Source of the DNA: Altibacter sp.
GTDB lineage: Bacteria; Bacteroidota; Bacteroidia; Flavobacteriales; Flavobacteriaceae
Length of the DNA: 64,000 bases
Reading direction: 5' to 3'
NCBI GenBank assembly: GCA_002696485.1
Contig: NZTP01000009.1
Location: forward strand, 1 to 64,000
Every line of letters starts with the position of its first letter. Position 1 is the first letter of the stretch. The notes under the pieces are model-generated. The model did no database searches. It was given only the letters and a program-made list of their open reading frames with translations, and was not told the origin of the DNA. A program made the translations under genes and the position numbers. Shown one piece after another: positions 10,535 through 14,951 of the stretch.

Positions 10535-12943
10535 TTATGGGTGAATGGTAAAACATTGAAAACTCCCAATGGGACTGCCATCCGGTATCTCCGGCACCAC
10601 CACGGAAGTAAAATTTTCGGGTTTCGTTCTAAAAATAGTAATTTCCCGGCTTAGTTGTTTGCTGAAGGCATCTTCCTTTTTTGAAAGTTCTCTCGCAAGC
10701 CTATCAATGGTCTCGTTTACCATCCCTTTTGTCTGCGGAAGGGCATTCTTGTGAAGTGAGAGTTGCATTAACTGTTGCAATGTTCTATATTGAATGGTGT
10801 TTTGCACCTCCTTTTGATATTGGGTTTTTCCCGAAGGAGAGAAGGTGGCTTTCACCAATTGGTTCAATACGTCTTCCAAGCCTATAGTCTTAGGATCTAG
10901 TGCCTTCTGTTGCACCAGCCTGTTGGCGCGTTCGGGATGTAACAGTAACCCCAATGTCATGTCGCTGGCGGTTGCTGCCGCTCCCAGAGCATCGAATGCA
11001 ACGCCCATATTGCTTTTAAACGACTCTCTGGTTCTCCAATATCCGTACGCACGGGGTGGAAATAAATTCAGTTTGGCTTCAGGGATGGCCAAGGTTTCGG
11101 CATCCAATGTTGTAAGTATTGCACTAAGAGCATTCTGTTGTTCTTCCTTCGGAAGGGTTTTTACAATTGTTTCATCTGTCCCTTTCACCGCATAATCGTA
11201 TTCCAATCCGCCGATCAATTTTACAGCCGCTTCGGTTTGAAACCTATGGTAAAAATACAATGGTACGAAGACATCTTCTAAGACCGAATAAGGTTCCCCG
11301 GCACGAATATTCTCTTCAGAAAAATTAGATATGGCTTTATTCCGAAGCGCTAACACGGCTTCAAGTTCTTCCGAAGCATTCTCTGCGTTATCCCATAGGT
11401 GGGCTCTGGCGTGTGCTCCACCCCTCGCCCGGGCATCACTGTCGGTGATATACCGCAACCCTTGATCGAAGGCGGTTTTCAAAATCGACCTCAAATAGGT
11501 GGTTTCGTCCATTCCGGCAGGGACATCGCCGTAACTGTAAGCTACCGTGACCTTATCCCAGGCACCAATCCCGGTTGCGTAGGCTTCACTAATATCTACG
11601 GTATCATTCTTTAAGCGAAGCATAGGATGCGGATAATCCATAACACTGGCACGCTCGTTGGTACTGGCAGCGAAGTTGTGAGCGAATCCCAAAGTATGTC
11701 CTACTTCATGGGCCGATAGCTGCCGAATGCGGGCCAACGCCATGTCCAGCATTTGTTGATGATTGGTGTCACTTGCCGCAAAAGGCTGATTCATTAAGGC
11801 CTGCGCGATCATAAAATCCTGACGGATCCGCAAACTACCCAAACTCACATGCCCTTTTATGATCTCTCCCGTACGGGGGTCGGAAATGGTCGATCCATAA
11901 CTCCAACCGCGGGTGGAGCGATGTACCCATTGTATCACATTGTACCGTACATCCATGGGGTCGGCATCTTCAGGCAGCATCTTCACTTGAAAAGCATTTA
12001 CGTATCCAATCGCTTCAAAAGCTTCATTCCACCAGCGTGCTCCTTCCAGTAAAGCCGAACGAACGGGCTCCGGGGTTCCTGGATCCAGATAATAGATAAT
12101 GGGTTCTTTGGCTTCACTCAATGCAGCCTTGGGATCTTTTTTTTCCAAACGATGGCGCATAATGAACCGCTTGGTAATAGGTTCCCAAATAGGGGTGCTG
12201 AAATCCATATAGCTCATAGGGTAGGAACCGCTTCGTGGGTCGAACGCCCTTGGCTTGTAATTATTTTTTGGCAGCTCCACGAAACTGTGATGCTGGATCA
12301 CCGAAATTGAAGTTGGATTAGGAACAACGCTTCTTAAGTGTTGTCCCGAAGGTTCTCCGGTAAAGGTCAACATCGCTTCAAACTCCACATTCTTTGGGAA
12401 TGCCTTTGTGCGTTCCATCCAAATAGCATTGCGGTCTTTGTCCAGCTTATACGTGCCTTCTTTGTTGTTTTTTAAAGTTTGGGCTACTTGGTGAGCGTCT
12501 TGAAGCAGGAATGGCGTAAGATCGATGATAAAGGTCGCCTCTTTAGTTTCCTTGATCTCAAAACCGAAAAGGACCGAACGTGCAAAAGCTTCTGAGATGG
12601 AACGTTTTTCAAGTTCATTATCAGTTTCGGCACGAAACTGAAGATTGGGTTGTATAAGTAACAGCTTATTGCCTGCCTTCACGAACTTGACAACCTCACC
12701 GCCCCCCAATTGCCCTCGGTCCAGACCAATATCGTTGGAGCCCAAACCGGTGCGCAAGGAGTGAACATATAAGAATTCGGTATCCAGTTGATCAACCTCC
12801 AGATAGATGTTTCCTTCTGTTTCAGAATAATGGAAATTAAAAAAACCTTCAAACTTTTGGAGCTTTTCTTTTTTTGCTAAAAATTGCCCCGAAACGCTAG
12901 TCATTCCGAAGCAAAAAGCGATACAACAGATCACATATTTCAT
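10535..12943 (-). CDS. Zinc-dependent metalloprotease (DUF5117/DUF4953-type)
   Basis: 802 aa with a signal peptide (KYVICCIAFCFGMTSVSGQ). The N-terminal half has the DUF5118/DUF5117-like pattern ('FNFHYSETEGNIYLEV ... TEFLYVHSLRTGLGSNDIGLDRGQ'). The catalytic region near residue 413 reads SAHEVGHTLGFAHNF, an extended metzincin-type HExxHxxGxxH motif, followed by a possible Met-turn segment 'ASVMDYPHP'. The C-terminal half is mostly helical and matches the DUF4953 region. Such proteins are common in Bacteroidota and are exported; the substrate is not known. It is the first gene of the unit that includes the small secreted protein and ltaE, and is divergent from prfB. Confidence 0.9.
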   Translation of the reverse strand: MKYVICCIAFCFGMTSVSGQFLAKKEKLQKFEGFFNFHYSETEGNIYLEVDQLDTEFLYVHSLRTGLGSNDIGLDRGQLGGGEVVKFVKAGNKLLLIQPNLQFRAETDNELEKRSISEAFARSVLFGFEIKETKEATFIIDLTPFLLQDAHQVAQTLKNNKEGTYKLDKDRNAIWMERTKAFPKNVEFEAMLTFTGEPSGQHLRSVVPNPTSISVIQHHSFVELPKNNYKPRAFDPRSGSYPMSYMDFSTPIWEPITKRFIMRHRLEKKDPKAALSEAKEPIIYYLDPGTPEPVRSALLEGARWWNEAFEAIGYVNAFQVKMLPEDADPMDVRYNVIQWVHRSTRGWSYGSTISDPRTGEIIKGHVSLGSLRIRQDFMIAQALMNQPFAASDTNHQQMLDMALARIRQLSAHEVGHTLGFAHNFAASTNERASVMDYPHPMLRLKNDTVDISEAYATGIGAWDKVTVAYSYGDVPAGMDETTYLRSILKTAFDQGLRYITDSDARARGGAHARAHLWDNAENASEELEAVLALRNKAISNFSEENIRAGEPYSVLEDVFVPLYFYHRFQTEAAVKLIGGLEYDYAVKGTDETIVKTLPKEEQQNALSAILTTLDAETLAIPEAKLNLFPPRAYGYWRTRESFKSNMGVAFDALGAAATASDMTLGLLLHPERANRLVQQKALDPKTIGLEDVLNQLVKATFSPSGKTQYQKEVQNTIQYRTLQQLMQLSLHKNALPQTKGMVNETIDRLARELSKKEDAFSKQLSREITIFRTKPENFTSVVVPEIPDGSPIGSFQCFTIHP

Positions 12944-13097: not shown

Positions 13098-14205
13098 ATG
13101 ATTACATACGATCAGCTTAAAGATCTTAGAGATCGCCTGGATGCGTTAAGGAGGTATCTTTGACGTTGCCGGAAAGCGCATAGAAATCACCAACGACGAA
13201 GAAAAGACCTTCGATCCCAACTTTTGGAATAATCCGCAGGAGGCCGAGGCTTTTATGAAAGTCCTTCGGAATAAGAAGAAATGGGTATCCGATTATGAAA
13301 CGGCTGTCACGCTCACAGATGATGCCGAAGTGATCTTTGAATTCTTTAAAGAAGGAGAAGGTACATCCGAAAATGTGGAAGCACGCTACCAAGAAGCCTT
13401 GGAAGCGATCGAAGCGTTGGAGTTCCGCAATATGTTGAGTGAAGAAGGAGACGATCTTAGCGCTGTTTTACAGATTACAGCCGGAGCCGGCGGCACCGAA
13501 AGTTGTGATTGGGCCAACATGCTCATGCGGATGTATCTTATGTGGGCAGAGAAGAACGGTTTTAAAGTAAAAGAACTTAATTATCAAGCCGGGGATGTAG
13601 CCGGGGTTAAAACGGTTACACTCGAGATCGAGGGCGATTATGCTTTTGGTTGGCTAAAAAGTGAGAACGGTGTACACAGGCTGGTGCGTATTTCTCCTTT
13701 CGACAGCAATGCGAAGCGACACACCAGTTTTGCCAGCGTCTATGTATATCCGCTCGCCGATGATTCGATTGAGATCGATATTAATCCTGCCGACATCTCT
13801 TGGGATTTTGCCCGAAGCAGCGGTGCCGGGGGTCAAAATGTGAATAAAGTTGAAACTAAGGCCATACTCACCCACCACCCCAGTGGTATTGTGATCCATA
13901 ACAGCGAAACGCGGTCGCAATTGGAAAATCGTGAAAAGGCCATGCAAATGCTGAAATCTCAGTTATATGAGATCGAACTACGGAAACAACAGGCACAACG
14001 AGCAGAGATAGAGGACAGCAAGATGGCGATCGAATGGGGATCCCAGATTCGAAATTATGTGCTACATCCCTACAAACTAGTAAAAGACGTACGTACCGGT
14101 CATGAAAGCGGGAATACCGATGCAATCTTGGACGGTTATATCGATGGCTTCCTTAAAGCCTATTTGATGATGACAGGACAGGGAGAGAAAAGTGATGAGT
14201 TGTAA
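13098..14205 (+). CDS. prfB: Peptide chain release factor 2, with programmed +1 frameshift
   Basis: RF2 recognises UGA and UAA and releases the finished peptide. The gene is in two frames: 21 codons from ATG 13098 to CTT 13158-13160, then an in-frame TGA at 13161-13163, then the rest in the +1 frame from GAC 13162 to the TAA at 14203-14205, about 368 aa in all, the normal length. The slippery CTT TGA C is preceded by an AGGAGG Shine-Dalgarno-like stimulator (13149-13154), the classic autoregulatory site: low RF2 favours the frameshift. SPF, the stop-recognition tripeptide, is near residue 198 and the catalytic GGQ is near 244 (SGAGGQNVNKV). A start at 13255 would lose the N-terminal 52 residues. 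The 3' end abuts an antisense TPP riboswitch. Confidence 0.96.
13149..13164 (+). promoter_or_regulatory. RF2 programmed frameshift site
   Basis: AGGAGG at 13149-13154, then TAT, then CTT TGA C at 13158-13164. The spacing and heptamer match the conserved bacterial prfB site. Ribosomes pausing at UGA slip +1 on CUU, so RF2 controls its own synthesis. Confidence 0.95.
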
Positions 14206-14248
14206 AAAACAAAGGGAACTTGATTTAAAAACACCAACGTTCCCTTTG
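14203..14248 (-). terminator. Rho-independent terminator, apparent expression platform of the TPP riboswitch
   Basis: Read on the minus strand, CAAAGGGAAC (14248-14239) pairs perfectly with GTTCCCTTTG (14219-14210) across a 19-nt loop and is followed by six T (14209-14204). The T run exists only on the minus strand, so this terminates minus-strand RNA; on the plus strand the hairpin lies behind prfB without a T tract. It begins 4 nt after the P1 helix of the riboswitch. Confidence 0.85.
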
Positions 14249-14251
14249 CAA

Positions 14252-14330
14252 ATCATATTCCTTCAGTTGGCATTACCCGACGAAGTTTTATGGGTATATT
14301 CTCAGCTATAATTTAGCACCCCAATATGAT
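14252..14330 (-). promoter_or_regulatory. TPP (thiamin pyrophosphate) riboswitch aptamer, no downstream gene
   Basis: On the minus strand the THI-element core is complete. P1 is ATCATATT (14330-14323) with AATATGAT (14259-14252), 8 perfect pairs. Next come GGGGTGC, P3 (GCTA/TAGC), CTGAGA (pyrimidine-binding loop), TACCC (pairs with GGGT, P2), P4 (CTTC/GAAG), GGGTAATGCCA (pyrophosphate-binding arm) and GAAGGAA. This order and these strings match the RF00059 consensus. A terminator follows at once. The first thing downstream on this strand is the prfB coding region in antisense; the next minus-strand gene starts at 12943. The aptamer therefore appears orphaned, or controls an antisense RNA. Confidence 0.93.
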
Positions 14331-14345
14331 ATTATAAATATACAA

Positions 14346-14377
14346 CAAAATAATTACCCAGTCATCTCTTTATCAAA
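14346..14377 (-). promoter_or_regulatory. Possible promoter of the orphan TPP riboswitch
   Basis: On the minus strand, TTTG (14377-14374) and TATTTTG (14352-14346, one base short of TAnnTTTG) are 21 nt apart. The predicted start near 14339 is about 9 nt before the aptamer P1 helix, as expected for a riboswitch leader. Confidence 0.5.
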
Positions 14378-14435: not shown

Positions 14436-14951
14436 ATGGCTATATTTGAAGTGAATATAAAAGAATTGAAATCCTTGAAGCCCGCCAGTCTCGCACAATT
14501 AAAGAAAGAATTAAGATACAAATCGGCAGAAGACCTAAAAGCACTTGTTATTAGGTTGACGAAACACAAGACTGAAAACAAAGAGCTGCTCACCTATTTA
14601 CTGTTTGATGTGGAGGACGAACAAGGTTTTATTACAAACACCAAACGTGAGCTGGACCGTCTTTTTTCGGAAATACACCCTACTAATTTTTACTATATCA
14701 AGAAAAGCCTGCGAAAGATCCTTCGCATCCTTAAACGCTACATTCGGTATTCACAAAACAAAGAGACTGAAGTAGAATTGTTACTCTATTTTTGCGAAAA
14801 GATGGCAGCGTTTCGTCCTTCCATTCAAAAGAATAAAGCCATGTTGTATGTGTATGATAAGCAGAAAGAAATGATCGAAAAAAAAATTAAAATGTTACAT
14901 GAAGATTTGCAATATGATTATACTGAGGAATTAAATAAACTCCCATTTTAA
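14436..14951 (+). CDS. DUF6155-like helical cytoplasmic protein
   Basis: 171 aa with no signal peptide and no membrane segment. It is rich in Lys, Glu and Leu and predicted all-helical. The opening 'LKKELRYKSAEDLKALVIRLTKHKTENKELLTYLLF' and the later 'RYSQNKETEVELLLYFCEKM' resemble the DUF6155 family, small Bacteroidota proteins of unknown role. Assignment is by resemblance only. It is monocistronic, between the orphan riboswitch and an 8-nt tandem repeat. Start ATG 14436 gives the full conserved N-terminus. Confidence 0.7.
   Translation: MAIFEVNIKELKSLKPASLAQLKKELRYKSAEDLKALVIRLTKHKTENKELLTYLLFDVEDEQGFITNTKRELDRLFSEIHPTNFYYIKKSLRKILRILKRYIRYSQNKETEVELLLYFCEKMAAFRPSIQKNKAMLYVYDKQKEMIEKKIKMLHEDLQYDYTEELNKLPF

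Follow-up and report, generated by a model that had tools for sequence, protein, structure and literature searches.

A conserved orphan TPP aptamer with its own terminator, a predicted small-RNA gene of Flavobacteriaceae

Described riboswitch RNAs and the orphan aptamer at prfB

SreA and SreB (SAM) and Rli55 (B12) of Listeria, as well as EutX (adenosylcobalamin) of Enterococcus, derive from riboswitches that are tied to a gene or locus fitting the ligand. These trans-acting RNAs (SreA, Rli55, EutX) carry the aptamer on a short RNA, and riboswitch-controlled antisense RNA is also known (PMC8383071; PMC2258182; PMC7266159), including the SAM-I riboswitch antisense RNA of Clostridium acetobutylicum, which lies downstream of and opposite to a gene. 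In their 2007 survey, Barrick and Breaker reported a handful of high-scoring aptamers away from a fitting gene, and left two options for them: control of trans-acting antisense RNAs, or recent orphaning (PMC2258182). A survey of gut Bacteroidetes sought TPP riboswitches adjacent to thiamin-associated genes (PMC5613172), and the map of Bacteroides thetaiotaomicron contains three TPP riboswitches, all in leaders (PMC7366714). No free-standing TPP RNA was recognizable from titles and abstracts, in a search outside which most subscription journals lay. To our knowledge, there is no earlier TPP case of a riboswitch that constitutes its own gene.

The window analyzed here (the whole stretch of 64,000 nt from an Altibacter sp. 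contig) had been described in a sequence-only reading as carrying a complete TPP aptamer with a P1 of eight pairs on the minus strand, next to prfB. This description proved accurate: positions 14333-14242 of the minus strand match RF00059 over the full model (1-105) at 57.9 bits, above the curated gathering score of 54.3 (E 9.7e-9), and P1 (14330-14323 with 14259-14252, eight pairs) closes an aptamer domain at 14252-14330. The perfect 10-bp hairpin and T6 run claimed to follow are likewise present, as an intrinsic terminator at 14204-14249 (minus strand) that is separated from P1 by a linker of 2 nt. Its lower stem (GCAAAGGGAAC/GTTCCCTTTGT; 14249-14239 with 14219-14209) has 11 pairs, ten of them Watson-Crick and one a basal G.U, and is followed by a bulge and five further pairs; the isolated hairpin folds at -20.8 kcal/mol (z -6.2 relative to shuffles), and the T run is at 14209-14204.

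The facing gene is prfB (RF2), encoded on the plus strand at 13098-14205 (Pfam PCRF and RF-1 on 13255-14202), the stop codon of which shares two bases with the T run. Because prfB ends at 14205 on the opposite strand, a minus-strand RNA would point antisense to it, as had been proposed. The metalloprotease gene placed beyond prfB is also there (10535-12943, matching Pfam DUF4953, Met-zincin). On the other side of the element, the divergent upstream neighbor (14436-14951, plus strand) encodes a conserved 171-aa protein with no Pfam match at E <= 1e-5. As read from the sequence at 13098-13170, prfB contains a +1 programmed frameshift site, AGGAGG followed by CTTTGAC at 13158. Translation starts in this phylum are described as depending on signals other than Shine-Dalgarno (PMC9723704).

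The earlier claim of promoter-like boxes stood in part. Sigma-70-like box pairs occur at chance level between 13000 and 15000 (6 sites vs 4.8 in shuffles), and that part of the claim falls; a flavobacterial -7 box, however, is located just upstream of the aptamer. The sequence TATATTTA (14342-14335, minus strand) departs only in its final letter from the consensus TAnnTTTG, which a Flavobacterium psychrophilum study places at -12 to -5 (PMC9723704). By this published position, the expected transcription start would be at about 14330, where P1 begins. Promoter box and terminator together predict a free-standing RNA of about 127 nt (14204-14330, minus strand). Among the family copies described below, TAnnTTTA/G is present 17-24 nt before the aptamer GGGG in 28 of 34, compared with a mean of 6.7 and a maximum of 14 in 500 letter shuffles.

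In sequence and structure the aptamer is like that of the TPP riboswitch (THI element, RF00059), the window copy scoring as a member, although the orphan copies examined have no thiamin gene downstream and a terminator that is predicted in both states. Unlike SreA/SreB, Rli55, and EutX, the orphan RNA is isolated and has a TPP aptamer, and its trans action is a prediction. The C. acetobutylicum SAM-I antisense RNA combines a terminator/antiterminator switch with a fitting gene, whereas no antiterminator is predicted for the orphan and the gene it faces is variable.

Distribution and conservation in Flavobacteriaceae

A covariance model of aptamer plus terminator, built from three Altibacter copies (R1), gave 34 full-length matches (61.5-177 bits) in 32 of 397 Flavobacteriaceae genomes and 22 genera, the genome counts being lower bounds since few candidates were scored per genome. 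The best match below these scores 55.5 bits; two lower matches that were examined singly (G125; G130 C36) sit at a TonB receptor gene. RF00059 alone at E <= 0.001 finds 33 of the 34 copies, the exception being G262 C23. Within the genus of the window, one further genome (G001) has the orphan element at prfB and another (G003) has none, with all candidates scored; in G002 the element faces an alcohol dehydrogenase gene. The element of G232 C27 (L181) is near a TraG-type conjugation gene, which raises the possibility that it may travel on a mobile element.

A second set, of 50 genomes, was also searched; it corresponds to 50 of 79 loci drawn by similarity to the 171-aa neighbor, and is thus biased to the Altibacter-Aequorivita clade. 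It yielded 15 matches, and 35 genomes were without one. The carriers are Altibacter lentus and 14 of 16 Aequorivita; the other two Aequorivita gave no match, nor did three genomes closely related to the window (L045, L046, and L047). In L045 and L046 a gene for a 378-aa protein adjoins the 171-aa gene, lying between the latter and prfB in L046. The element is dispensable over evolution, being missing from G003 and unmatched in L045, L046, L047, and two of the 16 Aequorivita. In one uncultured Aequorivita (L236, 1501-1655) the aptamer core is decayed while the terminator is intact, and at L237 the first half of the aptamer is missing, at what looks like a chimeric contig.

Searches at other scales returned few copies. 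Applied to the window and the 79 loci around the 171-aa gene, R1 matched strongly only in the window and A. lentus (next 25 bits), with 5-kb flanks that missed the Aequorivita copies. A second model (R2; E <= 1e-12) recovered four known carriers plus one ordinary thiamin-uptake leader from 296 genomes of the order, and no new member outside Flavobacteriaceae, with at most 10 candidates scored per genome, so that misses are likely. In 295 genomes of the class, R1 hits at E <= 1e-8 were limited to the window and three sequences scoring about 49 bits, which resemble ordinary leaders.

Within the alignment of the 34 copies, which favors the structure of R1 because it was fitted to that model, 93.5% of the cells are paired and both sides have changed at 31 of 40 pairs. 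None of 500 shuffles, which ignore relatedness, scored as high on any of five measures, and slid-partner controls were 38-53% paired. P1 has changed on both sides at seven of eight pairs, and P4/P5 covary, while P2 is nearly invariant. In the two terminator helices, 13 of 16 pairs show changes in both strands, which indicates that the terminator belongs to the conserved RNA; at least 6 T among the 9 bases at the stem end are present in 29 of 34 copies. A hidden small ORF starting from an ATG in P1 was considered and rejected, as by eye the frame is missing or different in other copies and the stems covary.

Across aptamer and terminator, the window and A. lentus agree at 125 of 129 positions (97%), compared with 55 of 117 fourfold sites (47%) and 185 of 317 third codon positions in prfB. 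Conservation so far above that of prfB silent sites is not the behavior of a dead relic. This bears on the proposal in the sequence-only reading that the element is the remnant of a thi operon lost by rearrangement, a proposal that would accommodate the lack of a downstream thiamin gene and the occasional absence or decay of the element. It is contradicted by the conservation and covariation of the unit in 22 genera, by its preservation relative to prfB, and by the absence of a thiamin gene behind any copy examined (none among the 24 of 34 downstream proteins scanned with Pfam), and we regard it as barely credible. The accompanying remark in that reading, that the aptamer seems too intact for a dead relic, agrees with the same conservation and covariation. 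The two alternatives in that reading, relic or regulatory antisense RNA, are those of Barrick and Breaker (PMC2258182), and the conservation of aptamer plus terminator across 22 genera speaks strongly against "recently orphaned" for this element.

Conservation of individual letters bears on which part of the RNA does the work. The lower terminator stem is kept in its letters beyond pairing, as CAAAGGGAAC and GTTCCCTTTG with variants. By eye, no conserved single-stranded seed can be named outside the aptamer core in the 34 copies. The RNA might be a functional small RNA in which the aptamer fold is a scaffold or stabilizing cap that binds TPP only incidentally, with the terminator hairpin (CAAAGGGAAC/GTTCCCTTTG) doing the work; the preserved stem letters are consistent with this, as are the 25 of 34 aptamers that do not exceed the RF00059 gathering score (nine do). 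The damaged aptamer and intact terminator of L236 would likewise fit a role of the hairpin alone. However, GGGGTGC, GCTGAGA, ACCC, and TAATGCC in the aptamer core are among the best conserved letters in the 34 copies, and a mere scaffold would not require them. These are presumably the letters that contact the ligand. We accordingly consider an incidental aptamer unlikely. The element is very probably a real free-standing RNA gene.

Gene neighborhood and predicted folding

Of the 34 copies, 26 have a convergent ORF as their nearest downstream neighbor (two-sided binomial p 0.003, with shared settings counted separately), and 21 of these 26 ORFs end within 40 nt of the matched stretch. The identity of the facing gene varies. 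In the family set prfB directly faces the element in four of 34 copies (G000, G001, G027, and G333; Pfam was run on the copy of the window) and lies one gene further on in at least G220, G072, and G052; other facing genes include hisI, a murI-like gene, recG, and genes for a CLC channel, an M28 peptidase, a universal stress protein, and an efflux protein. The conserved opposite-strand gene that a riboswitch-controlled antisense RNA requires downstream is thus lacking in the family set. In the second, clade-biased set, prfB is convergent right behind the element at 15 of 15 loci. The prfB arrangement is hence shared within that clade and not family-wide; in Altibacter-Aequorivita, where the element mostly adjoins prfB, a cis role would fit, and the element may have a clade-specific role at prfB.

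The claim that the aptamer is an orphan with no thiamin gene downstream extends to the family: among the 24 of 34 downstream proteins scanned with Pfam, 20 were named, none as a thiamin protein, and four were without match. The remaining 10 are similar in their first residues to proteins that were scanned. In the copies examined the element is not placed upstream of a same-strand thiamin gene, as a cis TPP riboswitch is. Eight of 34 copies do have a same-strand ORF as the nearest downstream, at 152-628 nt, which would allow a cis riboswitch that controls a co-directional gene through read-through. These ORFs are of different kinds (two fatty acid hydroxylases, three 197-aa proteins without Pfam match, one GHL10 glycosidase, one conjugation-region ORF, and one short ORF), with no thiamin-related name among them, and the 26 copies noted above have their nearest ORF on the opposite strand; such control is very improbable.

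Thermodynamic folding of the 34 copies, without ligand or kinetics, predicted the terminator at a mean pair probability of 0.97 (lowest 0.89), and again at 0.97 when the 5' strand of P1 was kept unpaired. The probability of P1 without ligand has a median of 0.19 and a wide spread, with 0.92 for the window copy and 0.01 for that of A. lentus. On average, nothing upstream pairs strongly with the nascent 5' arm of the terminator (mean 0.28, range 0.04-0.61). An antiterminator was rejected on these two results, the terminator with P1 forbidden and the weak upstream pairing of the nascent arm. Folding provides neither the mutually exclusive expression platform of a cis riboswitch nor the terminator/antiterminator switch of a riboswitch-controlled antisense RNA. 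As the terminator is predicted with or without P1, TPP, if bound, should act on the 5' half of the RNA and leave termination unchanged.

These results bear on the second proposal of the sequence-only reading, a TPP-gated antisense RNA or short sRNA acting on RF2 expression. In its gated form, low TPP would allow antisense transcription through the convergent gene (prfB here) and lower its expression, in agreement with the predominance of convergent neighbors, the 15 of 15 loci facing prfB in the Altibacter-Aequorivita set, and the riboswitch-controlled antisense RNAs described in Clostridium and Listeria. Termination that is indifferent to P1 argues against such read-through over prfB and for an RNA working as such; the pairing of the nascent arm reaches 0.61 only in single copies, and the facing gene varies, prfB being only one of several. 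With no antiterminator predicted by folding, and with prfB facing just four of 34 copies, TPP-gated read-through is disfavored and we judge it improbable. The short-sRNA form of the proposal fares better, given an orphan, intact aptamer with a promoter-like box and terminator, and it extends beyond prfB.

Thiamin uptake and a possible role for the RNA

ThiC is absent from 29 of 32 carriers (two of the 32 genomes, G333 and G352, are less than 90% complete), and is present in 66 of 299 genomes of a family sample. One of 27 carriers has ThiC compared with 65 of 272 others (Fisher p 0.014, kinship uncorrected), a comparison that presumes that the 272 others fall within the 397 genomes searched with R1. 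A relative of the TonB receptor was found at E <= 1e-100 in 33 of 33 genomes (the 32 carriers and G003). ThiC being mostly absent and the TonB receptor present, the RNA would occur mostly in bacteria whose gene content suggests a dependence on imported thiamin, and which appear to possess an uptake riboswitch as well.

The genome of the window has two RF00059 matches at E <= 0.001, the orphan (57.9 bits) and one of 39.6 bits at the thiamin-uptake locus, which precedes a TonB receptor gene together with genes for NMN-transporter-family and AAA_28 proteins and is taken for an ordinary thiamin-uptake riboswitch. The receptor is called "OMthi-like" here, a likeness in name only, after PMC5613172. 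Next to this second riboswitch, too, lies a release-factor-like gene (L008 2899-3303; 134 aa, RF-1 domain); that release-factor-type genes are found at both TPP riboswitches looks like coincidence. In G255 the orphan element is the sole RF00059 match at E <= 0.001, and the TonB receptor match there (C35:19722-21837) is split in two, one part containing an in-frame TAG.

The TonB-receptor riboswitch shares its aptamer class and its genomes with the orphan element, and differs in being an ordinary leader with a start-codon hairpin. All 27 TonB leaders tested match the aptamer pattern. In the leader (L008 3303-3546; L190-L219) a conserved hairpin, GAATAA..CCCCTTTT..TTATTCG, overlaps the second, start-codon hairpin, and its CCCCTTTT loop can pair with the aptamer AAAGGGG; a loose pattern for this arrangement matches 29 of 30 leaders. 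The aptamers of L195 and L198-L202 have a P3 enlarged by long inserts and score only about 28-35 bits with RF00059. Pairing of a terminator arm of the orphan with the TonB leader (the CCCCTTTT loop or AAAGGGG) is possible over 6-8 bp in some genomes, and was rejected since, by eye, the orphan has stem variants (GAG, GGA) for which the leaders of those genomes show no compensating change.

A tree of 34 orphan, 27 TonB-leader, and 24 thi-type aptamers (without L215, L217, and L218 of the 30 TonB loci, and without six of 30 thi-type loci that had no match), which is weak at about 90 sites, groups the TonB leaders (0.88) and the thi-type leaders (0.99) as clades. In this weak tree the orphan copies fall outside the TonB-leader clade and form no clade of their own, the thi clade joining among them.

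On balance, we favor a TPP-responsive RNA that acts mainly in trans, the product of a predicted dedicated TPP-binding small-RNA gene. This would be a Flavobacteriaceae gene with its own promoter, a TPP aptamer at or near the first base, a short linker, and a constitutive terminator, and it would be transcribed as an RNA of about 127 nt. TPP would stabilize P1 while the 3' terminator hairpin stays formed, such that the ligand state may change the stability of the RNA or the availability of its 5' half, but not read-through, and the RNA could thereby regulate an mRNA or a protein in trans. The most likely role would be a low-TPP response in bacteria that must import thiamin. A more specific version, a family-wide TPP-sparing regulator with no cis role in Flavobacteriaceae unable to make thiamin, is unlikely as it stands; if true, the RNA would open when TPP is scarce and repress TPP-consuming enzymes or release a bound protein, in parallel with the iron sparing achieved by iron-starvation RNAs.

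The conserved unit gives a defined RNA to test. Since related copies are found in many Flavobacteriaceae without a thiamin gene behind them, the element may encode an RNA that senses the vitamin and acts away from its own locus, and a riboswitch forming a gene by itself would broaden the functions of riboswitches.
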